DNA of 64,000 nucleotides from Terriglobales bacterium (GTDB taxonomy: Bacteria; Acidobacteriota; Terriglobia; Terriglobales; Acidobacteriaceae). A program made the translations under genes and the position numbers. Of this stretch, positions 6,414 to 49,215 are shown piece by piece; the stretch's first letter is position 1; each line of letters opens with the position of its first letter. The notes under the pieces were generated by a model. It was not told the DNA's origin and did no database searches. It saw only the letters and a program-made list of their open reading frames with translations. The stretch lies in assembly GCA_015655585.1 (NCBI GenBank), contig JAATEV010000120.1, positions 1 through 64,000 on the forward strand, written 5' to 3'.

Positions 6414-6443
6414 ATGGCCCACGAGGGTAAGCTCGTGGGCCAT
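6414..6443 (-). terminator. terminator-like attenuator hairpin between Cys leader and zinc-ribbon gene
   Basis: ATGGCCCACGAG pairs perfectly with CTCGTGGGCCAT around a 6-base loop. Reading the reverse strand, the stem is followed by TTTGTCGTT, the same tail as behind the hairpin at 9440-9467. The U-tract is short, so termination may be partial. Confidence 0.6.
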
Positions 6444-6474
6444 TCAACTGATCTAAAAGAATTTTGAGGGTTGG

Positions 6475-6567
6475 CTAGAAAATATGCCGCTCGCTCACGC
6501 AGTCGTATGCCCACAATGTGTTGAAGCAACACATGCGACAAAGAGCGGCGGTGAAGCGAACCTTCAT
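6475..6567 (-). CDS. candidate Cys-rich leader peptide (30 aa)
   Basis: ATG at 6567 to TAG at 6475. The peptide begins MKVRFTAALCRMCC and has a fourth Cys at 23. The start lies six bases after TATGAT, which is preceded by TG-G (extended -10), so the transcript would begin at the ATG and be leaderless. It is followed by the hairpin 6414-6443 and then the zinc-ribbon gene. Its first residues resemble those of the leader at 9576 (M-x-[VI]-R-F-T). The layout suggests that ribosome stalling on Cys codons controls read-through; this is inferred from layout. Confidence 0.6.
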   Translation of the reverse strand: MKVRFTAALCRMCCFNTLWAYDCVSERHIF

Positions 6568-6573
6568 GAGTTA

Positions 6574-6582
6574 ATCATACCA
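6574..6582 (-). promoter_or_regulatory. extended -10 promoter of the Cys leader
   Basis: On the reverse strand the sequence is TGGTATGAT, an extended -10 element, ending six bases before the leader ATG at 6567. No good -35 is seen, as expected for extended -10 promoters. Confidence 0.5.
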
Positions 6583-6635
6583 TTCTGAGGCGAGATTGCC
6601 GCGTCGTATCTGTAAGTTACTGGAAATGCTATGCC

Positions 6636-7259
6636 TTATCGGCTAGCGTGGCTGGAGTTGCGGCTGTTGAGAATGCGTCCGCGTGGCTGCGGCGTAAGGT
6701 ACTCTTCTCTGGGGTCGTAGCAGGGTTTTACGGTGCAAACCTTCTCGTTCGTCTTCGTTGTGCCGAGATAATTATGTGTAAAGTCCGCATCGCCGGGAAC
6801 CAGATAAAAGATTGCTTCCTGTGAGTGGGTATGTTCGTCCGTCGTCGGTATCACTTTTGCAGGGGCCGCATGGTTCCAGCGCACTAAGTAGTCCTTGGCG
6901 TTGATGGCGCGATACATGGAGATATCTTCGAATCTTAGATCTGCTCCCGAGGCATCTTCCTGCTCCCGCATATCTCCGTGGTCCTTCTCTGCGTGATCCT
7001 TAGCCGGGTCTGCACTGGCGACAATGACTACCTTCAGGGTGGGATTCTTCTTCAAAGAGAGCGTCACCTCATTCAAGCAGGAAAGAGCGCCGTCTTCTAT
7101 GCGAGCCGGACGCTTTTCATCTTTATCGAAGGCGATCGAGCAAATCTTTGTCACTCCCGCAGGAAGCGGAGTTACAGCACCTGCCTGGGATACAAAGGTG
7201 AGTCCGGTAGTAAGACTTAGAAAAAATAAAGCTAATGCCAATCGTTGCTTATGAATCAT
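6636..7259 (-). CDS. exported protein with possible OmpA-C-like domain
   Basis: A 207-aa protein from the ATG at 7259, with a signal peptide (QRLALALFFLSLTTGLTFVSQAGA). The centre reads LKVVIVASADPAKD, later MYRAINAKDYLV and a short basic tail, recalling the OmpA C-terminal fold in which a beta-strand plus Asp is followed by an RA-x-x-V-x-x-Y-L helix. It has a His/Asp/Glu-rich insertion (AKDHAEKDHGDMREQ) and two Cys near the C-terminus (VCTVKPCYDP). It is the last gene of the reverse-strand series that starts at 9358, 92 bases after the preceding gene. The OmpA-like assignment is tentative. Confidence 0.6.
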   Translation of the reverse strand: MIHKQRLALALFFLSLTTGLTFVSQAGAVTPLPAGVTKICSIAFDKDEKRPARIEDGALSCLNEVTLSLKKNPTLKVVIVASADPAKDHAEKDHGDMREQEDASGADLRFEDISMYRAINAKDYLVRWNHAAPAKVIPTTDEHTHSQEAIFYLVPGDADFTHNYLGTTKTNEKVCTVKPCYDPREEYLTPQPRGRILNSRNSSHASR

Positions 7260-7351
7260 TTCTTCATTTCCTATCCGCAATTTTTCTGTAGTTATAAGTT
7301 CCTTCGTTATTGGCATCCGGAGATCAAAGAGAGAGCGCCGATGCGATTTCT

Positions 7352-7822
7352 CTAGATGTAGCCGATCGCTCGTCCTGCGAGTGCAACCCCTGTCCAGATC
7401 GTCAGCGAGATTCCAGCCGCTATCCTTCTCCACCATGTTGTATCGAACTCAGTTTTTGCAGCGATCTTATGAATTAAAAACTGAGCGGCTACGCCTAATA
7501 CAAACAATGCCATCTTTGCCCGGAACGCTTCGTTGTAGTAGTAGCGCATAGGGCCGGAGATGACCATCAAGACTCCAGTAATCGCCATCACAACCAGGCT
7601 TCCGAAGAGTTGCGGAGAAAGCTCGCGAACGACTCTGCTGGTGGGTTCGGAGTTGAGGCCGATGCGAAAAAAACGAAGGTCCACCAGTAGAACAGCTCCT
7701 CCGAATATTGCCAGAGCAAGCAGGTGAACTACCTCAATTGCGGCAAACGCCCACGTCGATTGACGTAGAACAACGCCAAGCGAGCTATGTCCAATCCATT
7801 GGAATAAATCAAGCATCGACAT
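7352..7822 (-). CDS. DUF6644-like integral membrane protein, copy 2
   Basis: A 156-aa protein with about four hydrophobic segments. Histidines sit within membrane segments: EVVHLLAL in the first and FLIHKIA in the third or fourth, matching EIIH/ETIHTLG and LIFHTTT in the adjacent paralogue 7854-8351. Paired membrane histidines would suit heme b ligation, but this is my inference. It lies 31 bases downstream of its paralogue in the same operon, with a DUF6152-like protein and a GlcG/HbpS-like protein. The family name is from memory of similar proteins; no function is established from sequence. Confidence 0.65.
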   Translation of the reverse strand: MSMLDLFQWIGHSSLGVVLRQSTWAFAAIEVVHLLALAIFGGAVLLVDLRFFRIGLNSEPTSRVVRELSPQLFGSLVVMAITGVLMVISGPMRYYYNEAFRAKMALFVLGVAAQFLIHKIAAKTEFDTTWWRRIAAGISLTIWTGVALAGRAIGYI

Positions 7823-7853
7823 GCTGAATTACCTTTGTAGAAATTTTTCGTGT

Positions 7854-8351
7854 CTAGTTGTGGGAGTATGCGATGATTCGTCCGGCAACAATAATTCCAC
7901 CCCATAGACAGAGCGAAAAGACCGCAGCAAGCCTGGCGCGTACTGGCGTGATCTTTGCGAGATCCCATGTATGCACCTCGCGGAAGGTTGTTGTATGAAA
8001 TATCAGTGGATTCAAGCCAACCAAAAAAAGCAGGATAAGCTTGATGCGAAAAGCGGGATTTCCGTAGTTATCTTTTGCCTCGGAGATAAATAGCAGGACT
8101 CCACTGATAAACATCACGACAAAACCTCCCCACGTCCAGGGAATGATCTGTCGATAGAGCTTGGAGACGGAGACATGCCTCAGTGTCAGGCCCAGCAAAC
8201 GTAAGTCAATCACCGAAATTGTGCCGACCAGGAGTGTGATTCCCAGAGTGTGGATCGTTTCAATAATCGGGAATGCATAATCCGACTCTCGAATCGCGGT
8301 TCCAAATGGAGTGCTATAGAGCCAGGTGCAAAAATGAAGTAGAGGTGACAC
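7854..8351 (-). CDS. DUF6644-like integral membrane protein, copy 1
   Basis: A 165-aa paralogue of the next gene, with the same architecture: an N-terminal amphipathic stretch (LLHFCTWLYSTPFGTAIRESDY), ETIHTLGITLLVGTISVIDLRLLG, FVVMFISGVLLFISEAKDNYGNPAFRIK, a segment containing LIFHTTTF and a last segment ending VAGRIIAYSHN. The RLLG/RFFRIG and NPAFR(I/A)K blocks are shared by both copies. It starts 26 bases after the GlcG/HbpS-like gene. Two different copies side by side suggest a heterodimeric membrane subunit, possibly electron-carrying; this is inference. Confidence 0.65.
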   Translation of the reverse strand: MSPLLHFCTWLYSTPFGTAIRESDYAFPIIETIHTLGITLLVGTISVIDLRLLGLTLRHVSVSKLYRQIIPWTWGGFVVMFISGVLLFISEAKDNYGNPAFRIKLILLFLVGLNPLIFHTTTFREVHTWDLAKITPVRARLAAVFSLCLWGGIIVAGRIIAYSHN

Positions 8352-8377
8352 CTTCTTGTTATCCTTCCCGCATTTGG

Positions 8378-8881
8378 TTATTTAGCCTTAAGTGCATCGA
8401 TACCGGCCTGCGCAAAGCGCTCGTCTTCCGATGAAGCTGATCCACCTACGCCGATTCCTCCGATTACTTTGCCATCCTTGATGATCGGAAGTCCGCCCTG
8501 ATTGACTGTGATCTCATGCCCGCCTCGTGCGGGAAGGGTGACGAGGGTTTGCACAGGTTTTCCTGCTACTGCCGCATCTCGAACCTGCTTGGTCGGGAGT
8601 CCGAAGAGCATGGCCGCCCGTGCCTTGCCCTCGGAACTGGCCAGGCCTTGCGAACTCGCTCCATCCAAACGAACCAGGGCGACCAGATCGCCGTTTGCAT
8701 CGACCACCGAGATTCCAACCTTCGCATTCGCGCTTTTTGCGGTCTGCTCCGCTGCAGCAACCATCTTGCGCGCCGTTGCAAGGTCAATGGATTGAGGTAC
8801 TGGCGCAGGTGCGCCTGCAATTTGAGCCAGCGCTATGCTGGACGAAAAAGAAACCAGAACAGGAACAATTCTCTTCAACAT
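8378..8881 (-). CDS. exported GlcG/HbpS-like heme-binding family protein
   Basis: A 167-aa protein with a signal peptide (LKRIVPVLVSFSSSIALAQ) and the GlcG/HbpS fold signatures: LATARKMVAAAEQTAKSANA, GISVVDANGDLVALVRLDGA, EGKARAAMLFGLPT, and GGLPIIKDGKVIGGIGVGG. HbpS-type members bind heme or iron; GlcG members have other roles, so binding here is unproven. It is the second gene of the operon that starts at 9358. A second family member lies at 11759-12274 in the facing operon. Confidence 0.8.
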   Translation of the reverse strand: MLKRIVPVLVSFSSSIALAQIAGAPAPVPQSIDLATARKMVAAAEQTAKSANAKVGISVVDANGDLVALVRLDGASSQGLASSEGKARAAMLFGLPTKQVRDAAVAGKPVQTLVTLPARGGHEITVNQGGLPIIKDGKVIGGIGVGGSASSEDERFAQAGIDALKAK

Positions 8882-8935
8882 TTTCTTTTCTTTACCTTTT
8901 CTTTTGGATTCGTTGATAGTTTCTATCGCAAATGA

Positions 8936-9358
8936 CTAGTTTGTTCCGTTGTCTCCCGGACCACCATCGCCTGTAGCACCAGCAAAGATCTTGCGGCCAT
9001 CGGAGAAGGTCACGTTTCGAGCGCCAACCAGCTTCGAGCCGTCCTTTGCCGCAAATCCATCGGCCACAATGTTGTCACCGATCTTCAAGGAATCGTGCTT
9101 CCATCCGCGGCGTGAAAGCTGACCCGGGCTCGCACTCTCGATGCCCCAGTTGGTTACTTTTCCCTTGTTATCTTTCACATCGACAAAGACATAAATATGG
9201 GGGTTCGACCACTCAAACTTTGTGACTACACCTTTCAGTGTTACCGGCTTGTTGATGTCAAACTCTGCCGCAAACGAATGATGTGCAAACGCAGGTATCG
9301 TGAGCGTCAGAGCAAAGGCGCCTACCAGCGCAAAAAAAGCTAAGGTATTTTTCTTCAT
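8936..9358 (-). CDS. DUF6152-like exported protein
   Basis: A 140-aa protein with a signal peptide (KKNTLAFFALVGAFALTLTIPAFA) followed directly by HHSFAAEFD, the mark of DUF6152-type proteins, then KGVVTKFEWSNPHIYVFVDV and GWKHDSLKIGD. The fold is probably a small OB-like beta-barrel. The double His next to the cleavage site could bind metal or heme, but that is inferred. GGAG stands seven bases before the ATG. It is the first structural gene after a Cys-rich leader and terminator, and is followed by HbpS-like, two DUF6644-like and an exported protein in one direction. Confidence 0.75.
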   Translation of the reverse strand: MKKNTLAFFALVGAFALTLTIPAFAHHSFAAEFDINKPVTLKGVVTKFEWSNPHIYVFVDVKDNKGKVTNWGIESASPGQLSRRGWKHDSLKIGDNIVADGFAAKDGSKLVGARNVTFSDGRKIFAGATGDGGPGDNGTN

Positions 9359-9439
9359 ATGTTTCTCCGTGAAAATGAGTTATTTCATGCGTCAATCACA
9401 TGGCGAAATTGCGATGCAAGGGCATTCGCAAACGACAAA

Positions 9440-9467
9440 AGGCCCGCTTCGGATAGGAAGCGGGCCT
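9440..9467 (-). terminator. intrinsic terminator (attenuator) between Cys leader and DUF6152-like gene
   Basis: AGGCCCGCTTC pairs perfectly with GAAGCGGGCCT around a 6-base loop. Reading the reverse strand the stem runs into TTTTGTCGTTT, a usable U-tract. It lies 23 bases after the leader stop and about 80 bases before the DUF6152-like start, so it can only act on transcripts starting upstream of this operon. Confidence 0.75.
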
Positions 9468-9489
9468 CGTAAATTACTTAGGAATAACG

Positions 9490-9576
9490 TTAGCTGGCTA
9501 GTAGCTGCTCACACGTATGCGCCGATTCCACATCATCGTTGATGGTCGCGCAACAACATGTAAAGCGGATATGCAT
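9490..9576 (-). CDS. candidate Cys-rich leader peptide (28 aa)
   Basis: ATG at 9576 to TAA at 9490. The peptide starts MHIRFTCCC, with three Cys codons in a row, and has a fourth Cys near its end. TTGACA (9610-9615) and TATACA (9587-9592) with a 17-base spacer place the start of transcription only a few bases before the ATG, and no ribosome binding site is seen. The terminator 9440-9467 follows, then the DUF6152-like operon. This is the clearest attenuator layout in the window. Confidence 0.72.
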   Translation of the reverse strand: MHIRFTCCCATINDDVESAHTCEQLLAS

Positions 9577-9586
9577 GTTGGAACAA

Positions 9587-9615
9587 TGTATAGAATAGAT
9601 TCCTATTCATGTCAA
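9587..9615 (-). promoter_or_regulatory. sigma70-type promoter of the DUF6152-operon Cys leader
   Basis: On the reverse strand TTGACA, a 17-base spacer and TATACA. It points away from the promoter at 9706-9734, giving a divergent pair with about 90 bases between the -35 boxes. Confidence 0.65.
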
Positions 9616-9705: not shown

Positions 9706-9734
9706 TTGACACAAATTTTGTTTGCTGCTAATTC
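9706..9734 (+). promoter_or_regulatory. sigma70-type promoter of the PDGKPDLSGTW-gene Cys leader
   Basis: TTGACA (9706-9711), 17-base spacer, TAATTC (9729-9734). The leader ATG at 9742 follows seven bases later, which predicts a leaderless transcript. Confidence 0.6.
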
Positions 9735-9741
9735 TCAAAGC

Positions 9742-9810
9742 ATGGATCTCCTCTTCATCTCGAATTGTTGTTGCTCGCACATTTCTGTGCTGAGCACGCA
9801 GGAGATCTAG
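9742..9810 (+). CDS. candidate Cys-rich leader peptide (22 aa)
   Basis: ATG at 9742 to TAG at 9808-9810. The peptide contains SNCCCSH, with three consecutive Cys codons at positions 9-11. No ribosome binding site precedes it; a promoter ends seven bases upstream. The next gene starts at 9955. I see no strong terminator in the 144 bases between, only weak stems before a pyrimidine-rich stretch (9883-9895), so control could be Rho-dependent or translational. Confidence 0.65.
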   Translation: MDLLFISNCCCSHISVLSTQEI

Positions 9811-9954
9811 CTCTCTCGCCTTCAGGGCGGCTACCCAAAAGATTGTCGATCCCCCAAGCTACTCAGCATCCGCTCGAGTGGCATTTTCTTGTTTAACGCC
9901 TGTTCCGGGCGGATTACGACTCGTATCCATTGCACATCTCAAAAGGAAAACTGT

Positions 9955-10818
9955 ATGCAAAAACCTCGGATAATCCGACTCTTCTCGGTTACAGGATGGT
10001 TGGCGTTCGCTTCGTTATCATCGGTGACTGCGCTTCCGCAAACAACAGGTACGGCGGGACCCAGCGTCGCTCGTCATGAAAATGCGAAAGCAAATGTTGG
10101 CAAAGCCTCCGCTCTGGCTGTCGAAGTTGCCGGTCCTGTTCCTAGAACGCCGGATGGAAAACCAGATTTGTCAGGTACCTGGAGTGGAGGCGGTGGCTAT
10201 ATCAACAAGGATCTTCCGGGTAAAGAACTCCCCTATACAAATGCTGGAAAAGTTGCTTACCAATACAACATGACGAAGGCGCCAGATCCTCAATCCCTTT
10301 GCATTCTTGTTGGTGAGCCGCGCGCCACTCTCGATGGTTACCCGTTTGAGATATTGCAGAGCCCCAAGCGCCTCGCCTTTTTGTACGAGCGAGACTCCTC
10401 GTGGCGTCTTGTTCCTCTCGATAAAAGTACTCACGAGAAAGATCCTGATCCTACGTTTTTCGGCGACTCTGTCTCTCACTGGGAAGGCGATACTCTCGTT
10501 GTTGATGTAGTTGGAATCAAGGGAGAAAAGATCTGGACCGATAACGAAGGTCATCCGCAGAGCGATGCGCTCCACCTCGTCGAGCGATGGACAAGACTTG
10601 ATGAGAAGAATCTGCAGGTTGTGCTGACGATTGACGATCCCAAGTTTTATACGAAGCCATTTACCGTAACTCGCAGGCTCAAGCTTCAGAAATATGAGCC
10701 GGCAGAGTTCGCTTGCGATGAGTTCAATATCGACCGCGAACACCTCGGCCCTGGGTTGGGGACGAAGGATGGTACGCGTGGCTATGACAAAGATAAGGTG
10801 CCTGGAGGCGTAGACTAG
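9955..10818 (+). CDS. exported PDGKPDLSGTW-type protein of unknown function
   Basis: A 287-aa protein starting at ATG 9955, with AAAAGGAAAA before it and a signal peptide (RLFSVTGWLAFASLSSVTALPQ). It carries the signature PRTPDGKPDLSGTWSGGG at about 62-79, then WRLVPLDKSTHEKDPDPTFFG, SHWEGDTLVVDVVGIKGEKIW and HLVERW, blocks typical of a large acidobacterial family found in many copies per genome. No catalytic residues are known to me. A Cys-rich leader and its own promoter precede it, and a hairpin at 10857-10889 follows. Probably periplasmic. Confidence 0.75.
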   Translation: MQKPRIIRLFSVTGWLAFASLSSVTALPQTTGTAGPSVARHENAKANVGKASALAVEVAGPVPRTPDGKPDLSGTWSGGGGYINKDLPGKELPYTNAGKVAYQYNMTKAPDPQSLCILVGEPRATLDGYPFEILQSPKRLAFLYERDSSWRLVPLDKSTHEKDPDPTFFGDSVSHWEGDTLVVDVVGIKGEKIWTDNEGHPQSDALHLVERWTRLDEKNLQVVLTIDDPKFYTKPFTVTRRLKLQKYEPAEFACDEFNIDREHLGPGLGTKDGTRGYDKDKVPGGVD

Positions 10819-10954: not shown

Positions 10955-10982
10955 TTGACACAGGTTGCATGATGGTTATACT
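10955..10982 (+). promoter_or_regulatory. strong sigma70-type promoter of the rhodanese-operon Cys leader
   Basis: TTGACA (10955-10960), 16-base spacer, TATACT (10977-10982). Six bases separate the -10 box from the leader ATG at 10989, so the first transcribed base should be at or next to that A. Confidence 0.72.
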
Positions 10983-10988
10983 TGCCAC

Positions 10989-11075
10989 ATGTCAAACTAT
11001 CCCAAAGTATATTGTTGTTCGTCGATGACATTCCTTGTCTGCGGCGATATGGGATTAGTGGGTATTCTTGTCTGA
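10989..11075 (+). CDS. candidate Cys-rich leader peptide (28 aa)
   Basis: ATG at 10989 to TGA at 11073-11075. The peptide has CC at positions 9-10 (KVYCCSSM) and a third Cys at 18 (LVCGD). It is predicted to be leaderless. A small stem CCAGA/TCTGG (11080-11093) and then a strong intrinsic terminator (11123-11158) follow before the rhodanese-like gene. Promoter, peptide, pause-like stem and terminator together form a textbook attenuator layout; only the amino acid sensed is inferred. Confidence 0.68.
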   Translation: MSNYPKVYCCSSMTFLVCGDMGLVGILV

Positions 11076-11122: not shown

Positions 11123-11158
11123 AAGGCCCACTCGCCAGTTATTGGAGTGGGCCTTTTT
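11123..11158 (+). terminator. intrinsic terminator (attenuator) upstream of the rhodanese-like gene
   Basis: AAGGCCCACTC pairs perfectly with GAGTGGGCCTT (11145-11155) around an 11-base loop and runs into TTTTT. It lies 48 bases after the leader stop and about 124 bases before the next gene, with no gene ending just upstream other than the leader. Confidence 0.82.
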
Positions 11159-11281: not shown

Positions 11282-11749
11282 ATGAAGAATCTACTCGCAG
11301 GTGCGCTTCTGACGCTCTCTATTCTCCCCACGGCAGTCTATGCACAGCAGGCAGAGGCAAACGGAACAGCACACCAGGCTCCAGCGTCAAAGGCAAAGAA
11401 GCTTACAAACGCTGAGTTTGACGCGCTCATCGCTCATCCGGATCGCGTTTTGTTGATCGATGTTCGTCGTCCTGACGAAGTTTCGACAAATGGAGGTTTT
11501 CCGGTGTATCTCAGCATTCAGATTGGAGATTTGAAGAACCATTTTTCTGAGATTCCGAAAAACAAACAGATCATCACTGTCTCGAACCATGCTTCTCGCG
11601 CCGCTGTAGCTGCGGATATCCTGGCCGCGGCTGGATTCAAAGTCGCTGGTGCAGTCGGAGCTCAAACCTATGAGACCGATGGCGGCAAGCTGCTCAAGAT
11701 CCCCGTTCCTCCGCCCCATGCGGCGAATACTGCTGCAAAGCCGAACTAA
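11282..11749 (+). CDS. exported rhodanese-like protein lacking the catalytic Cys
   Basis: A 155-aa protein with a signal peptide (KNLLAGALLTLSILPTAVYAQ) and a rhodanese homology domain (about 40-135): LTNAEFDALIAHPDRVLLIDVRRPDE and an active-site loop IITVSNHASRAAVAADIL. In active rhodaneses a Cys begins that loop (V-x-C-x-x-G-x-R); here the position is Ser101, and the mature part has no Cys, so sulfurtransferase activity by the usual persulfide is unlikely. GGAAG precedes the ATG. It is the first gene after the Cys leader and terminator and is followed after ten bases by an HbpS-like gene. Confidence 0.8.
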   Translation: MKNLLAGALLTLSILPTAVYAQQAEANGTAHQAPASKAKKLTNAEFDALIAHPDRVLLIDVRRPDEVSTNGGFPVYLSIQIGDLKNHFSEIPKNKQIITVSNHASRAAVAADILAAAGFKVAGAVGAQTYETDGGKLLKIPVPPPHAANTAAKPN

Positions 11750-11758
11750 CAGGTCGAT

Positions 11759-12274
11759 ATGAACTTCTTTACGCATATTCAGAATCGTTTCTTCAGAAGG
11801 GTTGCTGTCATCTCAGCAGCAACCTTCCTTGGAGCCGCTGTTGCAAACACGCAGGAGATCGTTACGCATCGAGATCTATCACTCGATGCTGCTCTTACTG
11901 TTGCACAGGGGGCATTGGCCAAGTGTCATGCGGATGGATACAACGTGAGCCTGACGATCCTCGATAGCAGCGGCCTTGTGAAGATACAGATACGTGGAGA
12001 CGGAACTGGTCCCCACACGTTGGAGCACAGCCGGCGCAAAGCCTACACGGCATTCACGTTCAAGCGAACATCCGCCGAGACGGCGAAGGCTTGGGCCGTG
12101 TCAACAACTCCTCCTCCTGTCATCGAAGGAACTGTCGGCGCTGCCGGGGGAGTGCCTATCAGGATTGGAGCCGAAGTTATTGGAGCAATCGGTGTCAGCG
12201 GCGCTCCTGGAGGTGAAAAAGATGAAGCATGTGCAGTGGCAGGCATCTCTAAAGTCTCCAGTTTTTTGAAGTAA
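11759..12274 (+). CDS. exported GlcG/HbpS-like heme-binding family protein
   Basis: A 171-aa protein with a signal-peptide-like N-terminus (RFFRRVAVISAATFLGAAVA). Family blocks are SLDAALTVAQGALAKCHADG, NVSLTILDSSGLVKIQIRGDG, HSRRKAYTAFTFKRTSAETA and GGVPIRIGAEVIGAIGVSG. It is the counterpart of 8378-8881 in the facing operon. Its start lies ten bases after the rhodanese-like stop, so translation is probably coupled. Heme or iron binding is known for HbpS but not provable here. Confidence 0.8.
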   Translation: MNFFTHIQNRFFRRVAVISAATFLGAAVANTQEIVTHRDLSLDAALTVAQGALAKCHADGYNVSLTILDSSGLVKIQIRGDGTGPHTLEHSRRKAYTAFTFKRTSAETAKAWAVSTTPPPVIEGTVGAAGGVPIRIGAEVIGAIGVSGAPGGEKDEACAVAGISKVSSFLK

Positions 12275-12435
12275 GTACGAAGCCACAAGCAGCAGGAACC
12301 GCAAACTCCATGGGGATGTGGAAATCCCTCATCAGGATATCTGCGCTTCAGGGCTGCTTGTGAGTACCGCGTTCCGCGGGCGCACTGTTTTGTCGGAAAC
12401 ATGTGCATAACTTTGTGTCTTGAAAGGAACAGGTC

Positions 12436-15400
12436 ATGATTAAGAAGTTATTTGTTGCATTTATTTTTCTGGTGGCCGCAAAAATTACATTCTCTCAGGT
12501 TGCTACTGGAGCAATTATTACTGGCACTGTTACAGACTCCTCCCAGGCAGTGATTCAGGGAGCTGTTGTAACGGTGACTCAGACGGCTACTGGAGTAACG
12601 GCCAAGACGACGACCAACAATAGCGGTATCTACCGAACTCCGCCTTTGGGGATCGGCGAATATACCGTCTCGGTTGAAAGTCCGAAGTTCAAAACTGTTG
12701 TGGAATCCGGAGTTCGTCTGGATATTGGCGCCATCGTGGAGGTCAATGTGGCGCTCCAGACTGGAGAGGCGTCGGAGTCCGTTCAGGTGACCGCGACGGC
12801 AGAGAGTCTTCTGCAAAAATCGGATTCGACCGTTGGTACGGTTATTACGAACCGTCAGATAGAAGAGCTGCCTCTGAATGGAGGCAACTCCGGCCGCGAC
12901 TACCTCCAACTGGCCAGTTTGTCGGCGGGCACGAGCACTGCTTCTCAGGGAGTAGTTATCGGAGGCCAAGCTGGTACCCAGGTAGCATTTCTACTCGATG
13001 GCGTCGACAACAATAATCAGCAGATCTCTACCGGACATAGCGGACAAAAAGAGATCATCAAGCCCTCCGTCGATGCCGTGAACGAGTTCAAGATTGTGAC
13101 GAACAGCTACTCCTCCGAATATGGGCGGTCCTCTTCCGGAGTTGTCAGCGTTGAGATCAAATCCGGTACGAATGCAATTCATGGAAGCGCTTACGAATTT
13201 ATTCGTAATGATGCCGTTGATGCGCGAAACTACTTTGCGACGCAGAACCTTCCGTTCAAATACAACGACTTCGGTGGAACCATCGGGGCTCCTATTCGCA
13301 AGGATCGCTTTTTTATCTTCGGTGATCTTGAATTCTTCCGCTTGCGTTCTCAGACCCCAACATACAGTCTTGTTCCTACCAGCGATCAAAGAGGCGGGCA
13401 GTTTTCCAGTGTGATTTATAACCCATACACTTACGATCCTGCTACGAAATCGAGAAAAACCTATGACAACAACAAAATCACAACTCCTTTAGATCCGATT
13501 GCTCTTAACATTCTGAAATACATTCCTCAACCGAACTTCACTCCTACCGCCACGGTGCCTAACAGCAACTATCTCTATAATTCGCCCTCCAATGCGAATA
13601 ACTATCGTTACGACATACGTGGCGACCAAGTGATTAGCGCCACGCAAACCCTCTTCGAGAGATACAGCTCGCAGCAGACACGCGATGGAGTGGCCTCCAG
13701 TCTGGCTCCCATCAATGGCCAATACGTCGGAGGCTCAGGCGCACAGAATACATACAGCCAGGGCTTTGTCGTTGGTTACAACAACGCTCTTTCGACAAGG
13801 TTTCTGCTTGCTGTTCGAGCCAGTTGGAACAATCTCTCCTGGTTCAATTTTTTCCCGAAGCAGGATCTGACCTCTGTCGGTATTCCGGGAGTTGAGACGA
13901 TCTATCCCGGTTTCTCTCAGATTGCGATCTCGAACTTTGCAACTCTCGGAGTTTCGAACGTTCCGAACAGCGACGACAGCCAAAACCGAGAACTCTCCGG
14001 CAGTCTCACCTGGAATCGTGGTCAACACACTATCAAGTTTGGAATCCAGGAGTTCTGGCTACAGACGAACTTTAACAGTTCACAGAAATCGAGCGGCATC
14101 TTCACCTTCAATGGTGAATACACCTCGAAGTCCGGATCATCCGGGTCAACCGACCAGGCATTTGCAGACTTTCTCTTAGGAACGGCCTCAAAGGAGCAGC
14201 TATCGAGCACCGCGCTGCTAAACTTCCGGACGCCCTATACGCATCTCTTCGTTCAGGACGATTGGAAGGTAAGTCGCAGCTTAACTCTCAATCTAGGGTT
14301 GCGCTACGAACTGAGCCCGCCTGCGGTCGATAAGTTCAACGGAATTGCCAACTACGACATGGATACTCATCCCGATGCGCCTGAGTTGATCCGCGCCGGT
14401 CAATACGGCAACGGCATCGCTCAACGCGCTCTTCAGGATGTCAGCTATACGGGCCTCGCTCCTCGAATCGGGTTTGCCTTTAGTCCTGCCAATAGCAAGA
14501 CTGTTATTCGTGGCGGTTACGGCATCTTCTACTCCAACTTCATTACGCTTGGGGGAATGTCTTCCCTGGAGCTTAATCCTCCTGCCAGTCTCCCACGTGT
14601 GACGATCTCCCCCAATGCAACCAATCCTACGGCTCTGCTGGCGACCGGATTTCCTGATGGAACTTTGTCCTTCACGAATGGCAAGAATGCCGAACTGGCT
14701 TCTTACGATCGTCATGCGCGCATTCCCACCGATCAGCAGTGGAACATCAACATTCAACGCGAACTACCTCAGGGAATACTCATCGAAGTTGGATATTACG
14801 GTAATAAATTCGATCATGCATGGTGGAGCCTGGATGGAAACCCTGCGCCTCCAACGCCTACATCGTTGCTGCCTGCCGGAGGCATTAACGCTAACCGCAG
14901 GTTTCAAAAAACTGCAATTCCCATTGCTGGCAATCCAACCATCACGCTGGCCGATGTCATCCGCATCCAGAAAGAGGGCTGGAGTCAGTACAACAGCTTT
15001 CAGGCGAAGGCCGAGAAGCGTTATGCGCGCGGGCTCACCTTCATTACTTCTTATGCTTACTCCAAGACTATCGGTGTCGGAGACACGAACGGCATTCAGG
15101 ATCAGAACAATATCTCCGCCGAGCGAGCAGTCTCCGGAACCGACCAGCGGCATCGCTTTGTAGGCAGTGTCGTCTACGAACTTCCCTTTGGCCGTGGCAA
15201 TCGATTTGGTGGTAACTGGAATCGCTGGCTCGATGGCTTTCTCGGGGGATGGAACATCAGCCCCATTCTTACCCTGGCCTCGGGTACGCCTCTCAACCTG
15301 ACGGAGGCGGCGAACCCATCGAATACTGGTGGCGCGGCCGATCGCCCAAACGTCACTGGAAGTTGGCAGCAATCTCATCAAACCGTGGCCCAGTGGTTCA

Positions 15401-15681
15401 AGACAAGCGCATTCTCTGTTCAACCCTCTGGCACCTACGGCAACGCGGGCAGAAACATCATCCTCTCGCCTGGAACCATCAACCTCGATGTGGGAATCCA
15501 CAAGACCATCAAATTCAACGAGAGGCTTCGAGCGCAGATTCGACTTGAATCCTTCAACGTCACCAATACACCGCACTTCGGAAATCCGGGGCTGGACATA
15601 GGATCTTCCAAATCCTTCGGCGTAATATCAAGCGCCGGAAATCCAAGGCAAAATCAGCTCGGAGTCAAACTATTATTCTAG
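12436..15681 (+). CDS. TonB-dependent receptor, Oar-like, with carboxypeptidase-regulatory-like domain
   Basis: A 1081-aa outer-membrane protein: signal peptide (KKLFVAFIFLVAAKITFS), a beta-sandwich carboxypeptidase-regulatory-like domain at about 25-110 (GTVTDSSQAVIQGAVVTVTQ), a plug with LLDGVDNNNQ and FKIVTNSYSSEYGRSSSGV, then a large beta-barrel ending in Phe (VKLLF), the usual signal for BAM insertion. Such receptors import large ligands using TonB energy; the ligand is unknown. It follows the rhodanese-like and HbpS-like genes with a 161-base gap without a terminator, so it may belong to the same Cys-leader-controlled unit. AAAGGAACAGG precedes the ATG. Confidence 0.9.
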   Translation: MIKKLFVAFIFLVAAKITFSQVATGAIITGTVTDSSQAVIQGAVVTVTQTATGVTAKTTTNNSGIYRTPPLGIGEYTVSVESPKFKTVVESGVRLDIGAIVEVNVALQTGEASESVQVTATAESLLQKSDSTVGTVITNRQIEELPLNGGNSGRDYLQLASLSAGTSTASQGVVIGGQAGTQVAFLLDGVDNNNQQISTGHSGQKEIIKPSVDAVNEFKIVTNSYSSEYGRSSSGVVSVEIKSGTNAIHGSAYEFIRNDAVDARNYFATQNLPFKYNDFGGTIGAPIRKDRFFIFGDLEFFRLRSQTPTYSLVPTSDQRGGQFSSVIYNPYTYDPATKSRKTYDNNKITTPLDPIALNILKYIPQPNFTPTATVPNSNYLYNSPSNANNYRYDIRGDQVISATQTLFERYSSQQTRDGVASSLAPINGQYVGGSGAQNTYSQGFVVGYNNALSTRFLLAVRASWNNLSWFNFFPKQDLTSVGIPGVETIYPGFSQIAISNFATLGVSNVPNSDDSQNRELSGSLTWNRGQHTIKFGIQEFWLQTNFNSSQKSSGIFTFNGEYTSKSGSSGSTDQAFADFLLGTASKEQLSSTALLNFRTPYTHLFVQDDWKVSRSLTLNLGLRYELSPPAVDKFNGIANYDMDTHPDAPELIRAGQYGNGIAQRALQDVSYTGLAPRIGFAFSPANSKTVIRGGYGIFYSNFITLGGMSSLELNPPASLPRVTISPNATNPTALLATGFPDGTLSFTNGKNAELASYDRHARIPTDQQWNINIQRELPQGILIEVGYYGNKFDHAWWSLDGNPAPPTPTSLLPAGGINANRRFQKTAIPIAGNPTITLADVIRIQKEGWSQYNSFQAKAEKRYARGLTFITSYAYSKTIGVGDTNGIQDQNNISAERAVSGTDQRHRFVGSVVYELPFGRGNRFGGNWNRWLDGFLGGWNISPILTLASGTPLNLTEAANPSNTGGAADRPNVTGSWQQSHQTVAQWFKTSAFSVQPSGTYGNAGRNIILSPGTINLDVGIHKTIKFNERLRAQIRLESFNVTNTPHFGNPGLDIGSSKSFGVISSAGNPRQNQLGVKLLF

Positions 15682-16597: not shown

Positions 16598-16625
16598 TTG
16601 ACACTCCTCTGGTATCTGATATATT
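16598..16625 (+). promoter_or_regulatory. sigma70-type promoter with internal palindrome
   Basis: TTGACA (16598-16603), 16-base spacer, TATATT (16620-16625). TATCTGATA (16613-16621), a perfect 9-base palindrome, overlaps the spacer and the first -10 base and is a candidate operator for the GntR protein encoded just upstream. The leader ATG follows six bases after the -10. Confidence 0.6.
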
Positions 16626-16631: not shown

Positions 16632-16712
16632 ATGCATTGGAATTGGTCTATGTCGGGCTTCTCAACCCCCACGGCGATTTGCGTGTGTACCATTCCGTGT
16701 CGATGTTGCTAA
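16632..16712 (+). CDS. candidate Cys-rich leader peptide (26 aa)
   Basis: ATG at 16632 to TAA at 16710-16712. All five Cys lie in the last 11 residues: ICVCTIPCRCC just before the stop. Predicted leaderless from the promoter 16598-16625. The 217 bases to the receptor start hold an imperfect stem (16784-16812) before CTTTGTC, plus repeated 9-mers at 16846-16905. A stall at the terminal Cys codons would place the ribosome at the stop. Confidence 0.6.
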   Translation: MHWNWSMSGFSTPTAICVCTIPCRCC

Positions 16713-16929: not shown

Positions 16930-19900
16930 ATGATCTCCTACAAGTTCCGCAAGCTTTTATTTGCATTGTTGCTTTTCTCTTTGCCAATACGCTACCTGAC
17001 AGGTCAGACGCTTACCAGTGCAACCGTGGTGGGAACTGTAACCGATAGCAGTGGGGCGATTGTGTCTGGCGCTTCGGTACGCATACGGCAGCCGGAGACG
17101 GATGCTGTCAGTACAACGACTACGGGCTCTGACGGCCAGTTTCGCTTTCCATTTCTCAAGCCGGGCCAGTATGAGATTACAGCCGAAGCAACAGGACTTA
17201 CGACGACTACATCGCGCTTTCAATTACAGGTAGGACGCGAGCAGGCCATCAACCTGACGCTGGGTGTAAAGTCCGTGCAGCAGACGGTAGAGGTAAACAC
17301 ATCGATCGGCCTGTTGCAGACTGAAAATGGAAACTCTGTTACTTCCTACGGTCAGCAATATATCGAGAACACCCCGGTGAACGGCGGCGATATCACCAAC
17401 ATTGCGTTTACAACGCCGGGTGTGCGCATCAATGTCGGCGGTGGAAACGCAAACTTCAACGTGAATGGCCTGCCTTTCAACTCGGTGCTGTTTACGATGA
17501 ACGGCGCGGATATTGTAGAGCCCTATAACAACAACAATAAGTCGGGCTCCAGCAACAATACGCTGGGCGCGAACGACATTGCCGAAGCGTCGGTCATCAC
17601 TAACGCTTACAGCGCGCAGTATGGACGCGAGGCTGGTGCGCAGGTGAACTACATCAGTAAGTCCGGTACGAACAAGTTTCATGGCAACCTGGTGGAGAAC
17701 TACAACGGAAGCTTCCTCAATGCCAACGATTACTTCAATAATGCAAATGGAACGCCGCGGGCGCGCGCTGTAGCGAATCAATATGCCGCATCAATCGGCG
17801 GACCCATTCTCAAGAACAAGGTCGCATTCTTTTTGAACACGGAAGGTTTGGACTACGCGCTGCCCTCCGCGGGTGTTGTCTCGCTTCCTTCTGCAGCTTT
17901 GCAGACATACGTGTTGGCGCATGTTCCTGCTTCGGCGTTGCCGTATTATCAGGCGATCTTCAATCTTTATAACTCGTCGCCCGGAGTAAGCCGTGCTGTA
18001 CCGGTAGTGAATGGAACAAGCGGCTCGTTTGTGGATACGACAGGGAACCAGGGCTGCGGTAAGAATGGATTCTCCGGCACATACGTCTCCGGCAACAGCG
18101 GACAACAGTTCGGCGGAGCAAATGGAGTTTCCTGCGCCGTTGCGTTTGGAACGACGGCCTCCAGTGTGAACACGGAATACACTGTGGTCGGGCGCGTTGA
18201 CTGGAACATCAATGCCCAGCAGAAGCTTTACTTCCGCATCAGCCGCGATTCGGGCGTGCAGGCAAGCAGCACGAATCCGGTGAACTCGCTCTTTAGCGGA
18301 AGAAGCCCGCAGCCGTGGGTCATTCCGCAGTTGAACTACACGTATGTCATCACTCCGCGGCTGGTAAACAACTTTATTCTGAATGGCAACTACTACTCGG
18401 TAGTGGGCGGAGCAGATACGCAGGGGCAGTTGAAGTTGATTCCGCTGGCTATCGGTATCTCCGATGGTGGAGCGAGCGGCGGCGGCTTTCCTACTCTAAG
18501 CCCCTCGCTGAATACTGGCCGAATCGGTCAGCAGCTTGGAATCATCGACGACCTCTCGTGGGAGCTTGGACGGCACACAATTCAGGTTGGAGTCAACAAT
18601 CGAGAGAATCGCATCAGCAGTACGGCGAATCTAAGCGGTTCGCTCCCGAGCTACTCATTTGGGAGCCTTGCAGATTATGCCACCGGAACAGTTACAGACA
18701 GTAAGAACTTCAACAGCTTTACCCAGGCATTTCCCTTGCAGCCGAGTGTGCATATCCGCGTTGACTCGCTTGGATTTTACGGACAGGATGAGTGGAAGAT
18801 TCGGAAGAATCTGAATCTGACCTTCGGTGCTCGATTTGAGTATCAGGGGAATCCCTGGTGCAAAGAAAACTGCTATTCACGAGCGAATACGGTGTTCCTT
18901 GGGAATGGATATCAGGCGGGATCGGCAGTGGCCTATAACGCGACGCTGCAAAGCGGGTTCAACAAGAACTTCAAGCAACTGGAAGGTATCGTCACCGAGC
19001 CGCGCTTTGGGTTTGCCTACTCTCCGTTTGGCGAAGGTAAGACGGTGGTCCGTGGTGGCATTGGACTCTTCGCCAATACCTTTACGGCCAGCATTACTTC
19101 GAGCATCTATGGCAACTCGCCGAACAAATTTACTCCCAAAGTGACGACTGGCGTTGTCGGGCTTGCGCCGACGCCGGGAACCTCGCAGGCAACTGCAATC
19201 GCTTCCAATACGGCCTTTCAAAAAGGCTTTGCCGGTGGCGATACACTTACTCAATTGCAGGCGGCGGTCGGCCCGGGAGTAACATTTTCGACGCCAACGC
19301 TCTACGTGAATCCAGACAAGTTCCACACCAACAAGGTGCTGGAGTGGAGCCTGGAGGTGGAGCAACCGCTAACCCCCAGGGATGTGTTCACGCTGTCGTA
19401 TGCGGGCAATCATAGCTACAACTATGCCCTCTCTACGGCAGCAGCGAATGCGGCTTCGAGCAAAGGCTTTGGAGGATTGCCGGCCTCTATTCCCGATCCA
19501 CGCTTCGCGAATGTGACCCAGGTCTATGACACGGGTTATGGAAACTATCATGGGCTTACTGTTGCGGAGCGTCACGCGTTTGCTCATGGATTTCAAGGAA
19601 GCGCGAGTTACACATGGAGTAAGTCCCTGGCGCTGACGACCATCTATAACCCGGCGATCTATTCGCTTGCACCATCGGCAGCCAGAGGGAAGCAGAGCGA
19701 TGGCTATGCTCCAACGGCCTTCGATACACGCCATAATTTTTCGGCCGACTTTCTCTACACGAGTCCTAAATTGGCAAAGGCGCTCTATAACTATGTCCTG
19801 GGCGAATGGAAGTTTGGCGGAAAGATCTACCTTTATAGCGGGCGGCCGTTCAGTGTAACGAACGGCGGAATCAACGGCGCCACCGCCGGCTTGTCGAGTA

Positions 19901-20328: not shown

Positions 20329-20386
20329 CCCTCTCTGGCCGCTTGTTACGGAACAGGCGGCCAGACTCTTTTACGGAGGATTTACC

Positions 20387-22357: not shown

Positions 22358-22414
22358 AAACGCCATACGGCGGCCCATCGAACGATGGGTCGCCCTTAAT
22401 TCAGGAGTGCTCTG

Positions 22415-46327: not shown

Positions 46328-46364
46328 GGAAGCAGTCTAGCCTGTCCCTCTTGTGAATGTCTGT

Positions 46365-48905
46365 TCAGGAGACCTGCACCTTCATCTTTCGTTTCCCTTG
46401 CAGCAGGCTCTGCTCCAGCACCACAACTCCTCCATCCACGCGCCCCACAGAAGTCCTTCGAATCGCCGAGCGGTCATCCGGGTGAATATGGATATGCAGG
46501 TCCCCGGTAAAGTCGTTCTCAAAGGAGAGCTCGACCTCGTACTTGTTTCCCGCCAGCGAGTCGGTACGCCAGCTCACATGGCCAAACCGCGTCGGGCACC
46601 TCCCCACCGAGATATGTTTTCCCGCCTTGAACCAATGCTTCGGGGCCGCCTTCTGCAAGTGGCATACGCTCAGGTCGCTCTCCTCATAGCACAGCAGCCA
46701 GCGCAGAGCCATCGTCGGTTGCAGCGTTGAGTTCACGCTCGACGCCCACCAGAATCGGAAGCCTTCTCCCGCATAGCCGCCCGGAATCAGAGCATCCTCC
46801 GGAGCATACCGATTGCCCGAGTCCGCCGCGAAACACGCCAGTCCATACAGCGTCAGAAGAAACGGTCGATAGTCCTTCTGCCGGATGCGGACCGCCAGCG
46901 TCCCATGGTCCATAAAGTTCGAGGTGCGCATCTCGTTGTCGTCAATATGCAGGCCAATCAACTGCATCCCGGCGACCTCTCTATGTTTCAAATGGCCAAG
47001 ATCGAGCGCCGGGTCGCCCCAGTCCGAGAGGAACCAGTCCTGCATAAAACGATGCGTCTCATAGCTCGCCAGCCGCGTCGGCTTTCGGTCGATGTCGTCT
47101 GGATAGAACGGTACGATCCCCGCTGCCTTCATCTCGTCGTTCATCTTCGCCATCGTCGTCTTCAACGAGCGTTCAATGTTGGCGCGCATCTCGTTCGCCA
47201 CCGCCTGCACCTGCTCCGCCTCCGCCGCCAGGCTCGGATCGGTCTTGCCCGCCAACCGCAAAGACGCCGCATGGTCTTTCAAGCCACGCCACACCCCGGT
47301 CGAATTCTCGTAGTAATAAGGATGATCTGAAGGAGCATCGTGCCCCGGCCTCCCCAGGTCTGCCTCCGGCGAGCCATAGATCAGCCCATGGTGCGGATCG
47401 CTCTCCGGGTAAGTCTTCTTGCTGTACTCATAGCGATTCAGAATATACGCAATCATCCGTCGCAGAACCGGAAGCCGTTTCTGCAAAGCCCCCAGATTGC
47501 GCTCATAGAAGTAGCTGCGTGCAGAGTTGCACAGCACCATCCCGACATCGAACGGAGCCTCGATCTGGTCCTGCGTATTGCGAACGTAGTTCCCATCCGC
47601 AGCAATATATTTGTCCAGATAGTACTGCTGATAAGCATCCGTCGAGTCCGTCAGGTTCCACAACTGGTTCGCCCAGATGAACTCATACTGCGCCACCGGC
47701 CCCAGCGCATGGCTGCTCTCCGGAATCACCGTATACGCGCCCTCGCCGATCTGGTACGAGGGCTCAAGTCCGCGATAGCTGCACCGGCTCAACGTAATCC
47801 CGGCGCGCGCCGCCGTCAGAATCCACTCATCCGGAATGTCCACCGGCATTGTGCTCTCGAAGAGCGTGTTCCATCTCTTCCAGATCACAAACAGCTCGCG
47901 GAAGAACGCCTCTGCGCTGGCTCCGGTGCCCGTATATCTCTCAATAAAGGCGCGGCCATGCTCATCCCGATAGATCTTCATCCGCTGCGTAATCTGGTCC
48001 TCGGGAACCATCATGCGGACCCGTCCCATCGGCTCGGCGTTCACTCCCTCCGGCAGAAGCACCGTAATCTGGTATCCGCACTTATATTGCGGATTCCAAA
48101 CGCCAATATCGGCCACCGGCAGATATCCCGCAAGCAAAGTCCTCTTGCTGTAGCCCTTCTCGTACTCCCAGTTTTGCGAGTTGAAGGTAGGGAAGTAGGC
48201 GGAGGGATCAAACGCCGGCCCCCGCTCATCAGGAGCCCACGCCGCGTGTCCGCTCTTGTTATTGAACTCCCGCGAAGTTCCCTCTGCCTGCAAATACAGC
48301 GAGCGCTCCGGCCCTCCCTGCTCGTTCCCCACCAGCGTCCAGCCGATATACTCCGGCCCCAGCGCCGCAACATTCTCATAACAGGGGTCGTCGCTCGAAT
48401 GGAGAATGTAGTCCCCCGGCACGTCCGGCCCCGGCACATGCCGCGACAGGCGTTTTGCCTGGAACTCCGGTGGCGCGGCAATCTGCCGAGGGCGAATCGT
48501 GGCAATATCGCCGATCCAGCTCGGAATCACCCCAATCGTTCCCGACTCCGCCACAAAGGCGATCGCGCTGCGATACGTGGCGCGTTTCTCCAGCACAGCC
48601 GCCGGCTTGCCCTCAATCGTCGTAATCGCCACCAGCCGCCAGCCATCCACCACCTCGCCCACAGCCGCGTTTAACTGTTTGCCACCCACAACAAAAACCG
48701 TGGACTTCTCCTCCAGCTTCGTCGCCTTGGGAACATTGGCCAGAGCGGCCTCTTCGCCCGGCAGAAACGCCGTATATTCGTTCAGAATCTGCGCCGCAGG
48801 CCCCGCCTCGGCCACGCCCAGCGCCGCCGCCACGCCTTCCAGGGAAAAAGTTCCGCCCAAAGCTCCAAGCAACTTGAGAAACTCACGCCGTTTCAGCTCG
48901 AACAT
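46365..48905 (-). CDS. Tat-exported ~850-aa protein, possible six-hairpin glycosidase
   Basis: An 846-aa protein from ATG 48905 (GAGG eight bases upstream), with a Tat-like signal ELKRREFLKLLGALGGTFSL. It has a long beta-rich N-terminal part, a middle helical part with many aromatic residues (RRMIAYILNRYEYSKK, YYENSTGVWRGLKD) and a C-terminal block KAAPKHWFKAGKHISVGRCPTRFGHVSW that also occurs in the protein at 55893. The central repeats of helices with W/Y suggest an (alpha/alpha)6 barrel glycoside hydrolase, but I cannot name the family. Divergent from the receptor-sulfatase operon, so its target may be a sulfated glycan. Confidence 0.65.
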   Translation of the reverse strand: MFELKRREFLKLLGALGGTFSLEGVAAALGVAEAGPAAQILNEYTAFLPGEEAALANVPKATKLEEKSTVFVVGGKQLNAAVGEVVDGWRLVAITTIEGKPAAVLEKRATYRSAIAFVAESGTIGVIPSWIGDIATIRPRQIAAPPEFQAKRLSRHVPGPDVPGDYILHSSDDPCYENVAALGPEYIGWTLVGNEQGGPERSLYLQAEGTSREFNNKSGHAAWAPDERGPAFDPSAYFPTFNSQNWEYEKGYSKRTLLAGYLPVADIGVWNPQYKCGYQITVLLPEGVNAEPMGRVRMMVPEDQITQRMKIYRDEHGRAFIERYTGTGASAEAFFRELFVIWKRWNTLFESTMPVDIPDEWILTAARAGITLSRCSYRGLEPSYQIGEGAYTVIPESSHALGPVAQYEFIWANQLWNLTDSTDAYQQYYLDKYIAADGNYVRNTQDQIEAPFDVGMVLCNSARSYFYERNLGALQKRLPVLRRMIAYILNRYEYSKKTYPESDPHHGLIYGSPEADLGRPGHDAPSDHPYYYENSTGVWRGLKDHAASLRLAGKTDPSLAAEAEQVQAVANEMRANIERSLKTTMAKMNDEMKAAGIVPFYPDDIDRKPTRLASYETHRFMQDWFLSDWGDPALDLGHLKHREVAGMQLIGLHIDDNEMRTSNFMDHGTLAVRIRQKDYRPFLLTLYGLACFAADSGNRYAPEDALIPGGYAGEGFRFWWASSVNSTLQPTMALRWLLCYEESDLSVCHLQKAAPKHWFKAGKHISVGRCPTRFGHVSWRTDSLAGNKYEVELSFENDFTGDLHIHIHPDDRSAIRRTSVGRVDGGVVVLEQSLLQGKRKMKVQVS

Positions 48906-49071
48906 TCCACGATCCTCGTTTGTTATGCGAATCCTAACAGCTAAACTGCTGGGAAAGAAAGAGTTATCTAATGCAGCCAGGCCCGTGCTGCAAAGCAAGC
49001 GCACACCCGCAAGAAGCCCGACCGTCAGACCAATCGCCCCGTGTTCCCCCTGGTAAAACGGGGTACCCGAA

Positions 49072-49102
49072 TTTGACTTTTAGTCAAAAATTTTCATATC
49101 CT
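49072..49102 (+). promoter_or_regulatory. promoter overlapped by TTTGACT-TTT-AGTCAAA palindrome
   Basis: TTGACT (49073-49078), 18-base spacer, TATCCT (49097-49102) form a promoter ahead of the polycysteine ORF. The -35 is embedded in a 7-bp inverted repeat (49072-49078 with 49082-49088), a candidate operator. Confidence 0.5.
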
Positions 49103-49122
49103 GAAATGACGTAACAGGCAAG

Positions 49123-49215
49123 ATGATGAATATTCTTCAACAATCGATGGCCCTCTTTGGCCTCCTCCCGGATGCTCCCCGCACCGGCTGTTGTTGTTGT
49201 CCCTGTTGTCGCTAG
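49123..49215 (+). CDS. candidate polycysteine leader peptide (30 aa)
   Basis: ATG at 49123 (a second ATG at 49126) to TAG at 49213-49215. Residues 23-29 read CCCCPCC, six Cys in seven positions, just before the final Arg and stop. AGGCAAG precedes the start, so this one may use a ribosome site. The 133 bases to the receptor start are U-rich without a clear intrinsic terminator, which favours Rho-dependent or translational control. The downstream receptor-sulfatase pair makes a sulfur-responsive role credible. Confidence 0.72.
   Translation: MMNILQQSMALFGLLPDAPRTGCCCCPCCR

Follow-up and report, generated by a model that had tools for sequence, protein, structure and literature searches.

Conserved cysteine-codon leaders point to a cysteine-specific attenuation regulon in Acidobacteriota

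A stretch of 64,000 nucleotides (nt) from a Terriglobales bacterium (Acidobacteriota; contig JAATEV010000120.1, positions 1 to 64,000, of assembly GCA_015655585.1, which amounts to 3.12 Mb in 122 contigs), hereafter the window, carries six short open reading frames (ORFs), A to F, with clustered cysteine (Cys) codons; protein matches suggest a position close to Edaphobacter/Granulicella. This raises the question whether such clusters are accidents of intergenic DNA or whether they sense cysteine on behalf of the genes behind them, as a first-pass annotation of the window had proposed. All six ORFs were located at the positions that it gave (Table 1), and we consider it very probable that they belong to a cis-acting, cysteine-specific attenuation regulon of Acidobacteriota, in which leaders followed by a terminator act by attenuating transcription. 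The original reading as a cysteine attenuation regulon is supported, since orthologues keep the Cys runs and a search blind to gene function returns sulfur genes. The leaderless promoter geometry, the antiterminator and the wider extent reported here go beyond it.

Could the clusters have arisen by chance from TGT and TGC codons in intergenic DNA? Cys-rich short ORFs are frequent in six-frame lists, and because the raw listing for the window is long (38), the case rests on promoter geometry and conservation and not on Cys clusters alone. A promoter scan places the ATGs of B, C, D and E 6-10 nt past the -10 of a TTGACA/-10 promoter, with D and E as the top two promoter-ATG arrangements in the window (11/12 matches, ATG 6 nt after the -10). 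As this spacing leaves hardly any 5' leader, the mRNAs of B-E should be leaderless and translated from their very 5' end. Leader A has a -10 element at a similar distance, a good -35 being absent. Five leaderless short ORFs stand behind TTGAC/-10 promoters in the window, four of them (B, C, D, E) with CC, compared with means of 1.26 and 0.02 (at most one with CC) in 100 near-dinucleotide-preserving shuffles of the window in 2-kb blocks. A bias towards the reading frame is also seen elsewhere. At 18 promoter+ATG sites outside the window, TGYTGY occurs 20, 2 and 0 times in frames 0, 1 and 2, and CC is present at 14 sites versus 3 for LL, the next doubled residue; with the window included, 24 sites give 23/2/0, and CC 16 versus SS 3, LL 3, RR 2 and AA 1. 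These sites come from loci fetched by protein match plus one stretch taken by place. Together with the leaders conserved before 22/23 cysH and 27/30 sulfite reductase genes (see below), these figures make a chance origin scarcely credible, in agreement with the earlier judgement.

The first-pass annotation had tied its fate to conservation of the Cys codons, and these are indeed conserved: counterparts of leaders B, D, E and F with a Cys run stand before close orthologues of the downstream genes, where the remaining peptide varies and little is conserved beyond Cys. A recurrent layout (TTGAC, 17 nt, TAnnnT, 6-9 nt, ATG, Cys codons and commonly a hairpin with a T run) is found in relatives upstream of homologues of the B and D target genes, and the Cys codons of relatives' leaders are often codons 8-11. 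Same-genus homologues of the DUF6152 gene behind B have a leader directly upstream in 6/8 loci; in L069 and L080, the two exceptions, the gene follows a TonB-type receptor gene with a leader of its own (L128, L031). For the rhodanese behind D, three of five same-genus homologues have a direct leader (L033, L034 and L058; CC is terminal in L034), a fourth (L035) has one further up its operon, and L036 has no direct leader. No comparable leader was seen before HbpS homologues at other places in these genomes. Five homologues of the gene behind C in relatives also have a Cys leader. Leaders with a C-terminal Cys run (..SRCC, ..RCCCCR, ..LRCCCR) precede all three F orthologues at 56-57% identity, two with a leaderless promoter, and a CC ORF without promoter precedes 2 of 15 more distant receptors related to the F target. 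The leader of an E orthologue (64% identity) ends ..GTRCCCCRA, and 13 more distant orthologues of the E target include two with a CC ORF, again without promoter.

To ask how far this arrangement reaches, we used a leader model made from sequence, blind to gene function and without sulfur as an input (R1 from 11 leaders over 61 genomes, R2 from 28 over 40 genomes). The model runs and a DNA scan yielded 60 candidate leaders, which are related loci of different species and not independent, with one false row (L140) that overlaps apparent coding sequence and was kept in the 60-row table and the terminator counts and dropped from the codon count. B, C and D are among the 60; A, E and F are missing because their Cys runs or promoters fall outside the filter. 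The weak R2 matches were read in part only. Judged non-members on reading were the R1 matches L101, L102, L105-L109, L113 (E 0.009) and L115 and the later matches L139, L145, L150-L152 and L155. The genes returned by this search include sulfite reductase, PAPS reductase, sulfatases, rhodanese and a Cons_hypoth698 protein, a family that we take to be the YeiH type. Pfam assignment of 20 cluster representatives of the genes behind the 60 leaders gives TonB-type receptors (9), redoxin-domain proteins (9), DUF6152 (6), homologues of the protein behind C (6, that protein included), sulfite reductases (NIR_SIR, 5), a 148-aa group without family (4), sulfatases (3), rhodaneses (3) and 1-Cys peroxiredoxins (2, with L170 as a third by reading), in addition to single PAPS reductase, Cons_hypoth698, MFS, CHRD, LysR and methyltransferase genes.

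For sulfite reductase we compared 30 same-genus loci, one per species, of which L179 and L186 were known beforehand from the model. A leaderless ATG leader with Cys codons precedes 27 of them, the window's own genome included (L191), usually with the motif CRxCCCDxVRRxLCP. Two of the three misses (L187, L201) have a GTG-start leader, which raises the count to 29/30, and the third (L180) directly follows another gene. In the same order, sulfite reductase loci have a CC ORF in 5/5 cases and a leaderless promoter in 4/5, and nitrite-reductase-like paralogues have a leader in 0/15. A phylum comparison of the best 80 of at least 570 sulfite reductase loci (at least 200 nt upstream required, three too short dropped) found a CC leader in 40/44 loci of named Acidobacteriota, 36 with a leaderless promoter, and in 0/31 loci of other phyla (Rokubacteriota/Methylomirabilota 0/12, Actinobacteria 0/19). 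Two metagenome-assembled genomes labelled Verrucomicrobia and Opitutia (L232, L236) have an Acidobacteria-like sulfite reductase with a Cys leader and may represent mislabelled bins or gene transfer. A leader before cysH was predicted first and then tested. It is present in 22/23 orthologues at 66% identity or more (the query, L343, included; the miss is L353), among them the cysH of the window's own genome (MRISTANTVCRLCCSTCCCCPACPCGCACCR). The 22 leaders contain 145 Cys among 555 residues, and a leaderless promoter for the listed ORF is recognisable in 16; distant cysH homologues have a leader within 300 nt in 0/7 cases.

Copper-responsive upstream ORFs exist, and by analogy the leader peptides could sense metal or redox state through the thiols of the nascent chain. 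Cys-rich peptides bind metals, and redoxins, peroxiredoxins and TonB-type receptors are among the targets. However, so are cysH, sulfite reductase and sulfatases, the number and spacing of Cys vary freely between leaders, and a preference for UGU over UGC points to decoding and not to the peptide, making such a sensor highly improbable. UGU/UGC counts are 160/71 in the tabulated leaders and 104/69 in the sulfite reductase leaders, a set collected through protein matches. The figure for 16 window genes with Pfam support is 14/41, giving odds ratios of 6.6 and 4.4, respectively; a first background of 24 long ORFs included 8 without Pfam support, and the comparison was repeated on the 16.

The output of the sensor is a separate matter. 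Three strong hairpins had been noted behind the window ORFs and are present after A, B and D; C has a weaker one. Intrinsic terminators follow 30 of the 60 leaders, compared with 3.2 expected from shuffles; 29 of these terminators begin between +100 and +157, and that of L168 begins at +182. A properly placed terminator was seen in 22/29 members of the sulfite reductase set (looser scan, no control) and in 9/22 cysH leaders versus 0.6 expected; none was found for E, F, the redoxin group and 13/22 cysH leaders. Pairing of the terminator 5' arm was then scored with the stretch from +46, a boundary that we set as the ribosome's reach, to the terminator, against shuffled stretches, for 26 of the 30 terminator rows (L135+, L064+, L063+ and L154- were dropped beforehand for irregular hairpins). 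The mean z is -1.29 for the 5' arm (p 3e-4) and +0.33 for the 3' arm control (paired p 6e-5). The 5' arm mostly finds its best partner between +46 and +76, immediately 3' of the Cys codons, which fits a stalled ribosome freeing this segment and a moving one covering it. Good cases are L031, L121, L159, L164 and L166 and, in the window, D and A. In the sulfite reductase family, GTGCGC..CTTTGC in the ORF pairs with GCAAAG..GCGCCCAC. In an alignment of 24/29 leaders (A6; L179, L186, L187, L194 and L202 left out beforehand as divergent), 85.5% of cells in this stem pair (81.8 shuffled), 13 cells are double-changed (4.1 shuffled) and the covariation score is 0.189 (0.133 shuffled), each value reached in 0 of 500 shuffles, with the pairs having been chosen on the same alignment and kinship among the sequences inflating covariation counts. 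Slid versions of the stem pair at 20-52%, and the A6 terminator is 92.8% paired with 10 double changes versus 3.2. A VR pair after the Cys run is conserved in many sulfite reductase leaders (L141, L146, L181-L208), which may be explained by its codons, GTGCGC, belonging to the antiterminator. The predicted antiterminator is thus supported for the leaders as a group and, in the sulfite reductase family, by covariation on three of five measures.

The same cysteine sensor could instead have a translational output throughout, as in mycobacteria, with the next gene's ribosome site exposed or hidden and the hairpins incidental. The lack of a terminator in half of the leaders would fit this, as would the Cys run at the very end of ORFs E and F, like that of mycobacterial cys leaders, which lack conserved terminators according to Seliverstov et al. 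(PMC1262725). The terminator excess (30/60 vs. 3.2), with most starts between +100 and +157, and the antiterminator complementarity, specific to the 5' arm and covarying in one family, argue the other way, and we regard a purely translational output as unlikely. About half of the leaders may be classical transcription attenuators, unlike the mycobacterial ones.

Under cysteine-specific attenuation, the promoter would fire at or adjoining the start codon of a 12-34 codon ORF, producing a leaderless mRNA on whose 5' end the first ribosome loads. With ample Cys-tRNA this ribosome would pass the Cys codons and cover the segment behind them, and the GC-rich terminator would stop transcription. With Cys-tRNA in short supply it would stall on the Cys codons and leave the downstream segment free to pair as antiterminator with the terminator 5' arm, allowing RNA polymerase to proceed into the sulfur genes. 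The genes switched on would comprise sulfite reductase, cysH, sulfatases, TonB-type receptors, rhodanese/DUF6152/HbpS operons and redoxins. Leaders without terminator (E, F, the redoxin group and part of cysH) probably use the same sensor with another output, through Rho or the next gene's ribosome site. We infer from the sequences that the start is leaderless, that ribosomes stall, that the switch responds to cysteine and in which direction it turns. On balance, we lean towards one cysteine-sensing ribosome switch that has been copied before several, perhaps as many as a dozen, unlinked operons in each genome. In a large part of Acidobacteriota it would form a global sulfur-starvation regulon that needs no protein regulator, links assimilation by cysH and sulfite reductase with scavenging by sulfatases and TonB-type receptors, and draws in uncharacterised families (DUF6152, DUF6644, HbpS-like and the 287-aa protein behind C) as sulfur-acquisition genes.

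Several results weigh against so general a reading. Each ORF had been described as standing between a promoter and a gene; this fails for A, where a downstream gene was looked for and none is recognisable, and F starts about 20 nt past the best promoter match and is not leaderless. No leaderless promoter for the listed ORF is seen in 4/40 Acidobacteriota sulfite reductase leaders and 6/22 cysH leaders. A terminator was not found in half of the 60 rows, so that one mechanism does not cover all leaders, and no convincing switch structure shared by the redoxin group emerged when its leaders were folded. The antiterminator of B is unsupported (z +1.0), as are those of its DUF6152 homologues L062 and L063 (z +1.1 and +1.5), and several other z values are near zero. 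In A6, whose pairs were not chosen independently, the pairs with double changes (4 vs. 3.1) and the pair types (10 vs. 11.2) do not exceed shuffles. Model matches are partly circular in promoter and Cys pattern. Finally, DUF6152 loci of other families in same-class genomes have a leader in 0/21 cases, and R1 gave two weak matches, both judged non-members, in ten same-class genomes (G051-G060).

Table 1. Leader ORFs, candidate control elements and neighbouring genes in the window.
Feature	Position	Strand	Details
-10-like element of A	6579-6574	-	TATGAT, 6 nt before ATG
Leader ORF A	6475..6567	-	peptide MKVRFTAALCRMCC.. / MKVRFTAALCRMCCFNTLWAYDCVSERHIF; CRMCC shared with sulfite reductase leaders
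Candidate antiterminator strand of A	6508..6517	-	ATTGTGGGCA; RNAduplex -14.6 kcal/mol with terminator 5' arm, no shuffle control
Terminator-like hairpin of A	6416..6441	-	-19.8 kcal/mol, z -4.7; then ATTTGTCG, imperfect U tract
Promoter of B	9587..9615	-	TTGACA, 17 nt, TATACA; ATG 10 nt on
Leader ORF B	9490..9576	-	peptide MHIRFTCCCATIN.. / MHIRFTCCCATINDDVESAHTCEQLLAS
Intrinsic terminator of B	9439..9468	-	-23.1 kcal/mol
Operon behind B	6636..9358	-	five genes, listed singly
DUF6152 gene, operon B	9358-8936	-	
HbpS-like gene, operon B	8881-8378	-	
Two DUF6644 membrane protein genes, operon B	8351-7854 and 7822-7352	-	
213-266 aa protein, last in operon B	ends at 6636	-	
Promoter of C	9706..9735	+	TTGACA, 17-18 nt, TAATTC/AATTCT; divergent from B
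Leader ORF C	9742..9810	+	peptide MDLLFISNCCCS.. / MDLLFISNCCCSHISVLSTQEI
Terminator-like hairpin of C, weaker	9858..9882	+	-12.9 kcal/mol
287-aa exported-looking protein behind C	9955..10818	+	5 homologues behind Cys leaders in relatives
Promoter of D	10955..10982	+	TTGACA, 16 nt, TATACT; 11/12 matches
Leader ORF D	10989..11075	+	peptide MSNYPKVYCCSS.. / MSNYPKVYCCSSMTFLVCGDMGLVGILV; ATG 6 nt past -10
Putative antiterminator strand of D	11056..11064	+	TAGTGGGTA; -12.0 kcal/mol, z -1.2
Intrinsic terminator of D	11123..11155	+	-20.4 kcal/mol
Operon behind D	11282..15681	+	rhodanese, HbpS-like, TonB-type receptor
Rhodanese, operon D	11282-11749	+	
HbpS-like gene, operon D	11759-12274	+	
TonB-type receptor, operon D	12436-15681	+	
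Promoter of E	16598..16625	+	TTGACA, 16 nt, TATATT
Leader ORF E	16632..16712	+	peptide MHWNWSMSGFSTPTAICVCTIPCRCC, end ..ICVCTIPCRCC
Genes behind E	16930..24181	+	TonB-type receptor, S9 peptidase, M28 peptidase
Leader ORF F	49123..49215	+	peptide MMNILQQSMALFGLLPDAPRTGCCCCPCCR, end ..TGCCCCPCCR
Genes behind F	49349..54396	+	TonB-type receptor 49349-52939, sulfatase 52948-54396

Further features of the loci deserve mention. Leader A, with its hairpin and candidate antiterminator, may be an orphan switch, perhaps one whose target has been lost. Leaders B and C form a divergent pair (9490-9810), with back-to-back promoters that each have their own Cys leader, and six loci of relatives show the same arrangement (L062, L063, L064, L065, L067 and L111). 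Between the -35 and -10 of promoter B, the spacer (9593-9608) is a palindrome, GAATAG-GAAT-CTATTC, and the promoter of L121 contains another, GGAAAC-AA-GTTTCC; both are possibly repressor operators. The 287-aa protein behind C has no family in Pfam or NCBIfam. DUF6152 has expanded to 45 and 67 matches in the class-level relatives G054 and G060, where the loci examined are without Cys leader. An Rfam search of the window returned one tRNA only, and a search of nine relatives' loci gave four snoRNA matches, all sub-threshold; NCBIfam leader-peptide hidden Markov models matched none of five leaders at E<=1. Across 1-64000 the GC skew starts strongly positive, drops to near zero at about 6 kb and turns strongly negative from about 38 kb, and GC content falls to 0.47-0.58 between 6 and 44 kb, a stretch that contains five of the six leaders.

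The significance of these leaders is best judged against known systems. Classical amino acid attenuators are exemplified by the trp and his leaders, with which the Acidobacteriota leaders share a leader peptide with regulatory codons and, in about half of the cases, a terminator with a predicted competing antiterminator; unlike these, they use cysteine as the amino acid and serve several unlinked targets in one genome, some of them genes for uptake or exported proteins. The leaderless start is shared with the Leu, Trp and Ilv leaders of Streptomyces lividans (PMC8079986). The same paper describes a leaderless metL leader before metNIQ that ends ..ARCMCRRMCAF, with three Cys; its authors read it as a methionine/threonine leader, and its sequence suggests that it could be a cysteine leader. 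Attenuators have also been predicted in Acidobacteria, almost wholly without assigned function according to PMC2965389, and no earlier report of cysteine leader peptides in Acidobacteria was found in the open-access literature searched. In Actinobacteria, short ORFs with runs of Cys codons were predicted in 2005 before cys operons and cbs (Seliverstov et al., PMC1262725). Such ORFs are common to both phyla, whereas the actinobacterial cys leaders are reported to lack conserved terminator hairpins and to have their Cys runs close to the stop codon, and terminators are conserved in many Acidobacteriota leaders. Closest in kind is the cysteine-responsive attenuation by leaderless polycysteine short ORFs of mycobacteria (Canestrari et al. 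2020), which likewise have contiguous Cys codons ahead of cysteine or sulfur genes. There, cysteine availability is the demonstrated signal, which we infer for the Acidobacteriota leaders. The leaderless start here is a matter of promoter geometry, which holds for B-E and most homologues and not for F or six of the 22 cysH leaders. Because the mycobacterial type is reportedly without terminator, the Acidobacteriota system is set apart from it: about half of its leaders have an intrinsic terminator, with an antiterminator signal, the Cys run is often at codons 8-11, the phylum is different, and TonB-type receptors, sulfatases, DUF6152/rhodanese operons and redoxins are among the targets. Acidobacteriota are abundant in soil, and they now have a named system open to experiment, a proposed cysteine-specific transcription attenuator that combines a terminator with an antiterminator. 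Its leader is a sequence tag that predicts a sulfur-acquisition role for genes so far without known function, such as DUF6152, DUF6644 and some TonB-type receptors. The sensor is known in kind; as far as the open-access literature searched shows, its occurrence in this phylum, its terminator/antiterminator output and its broad range of targets are new.

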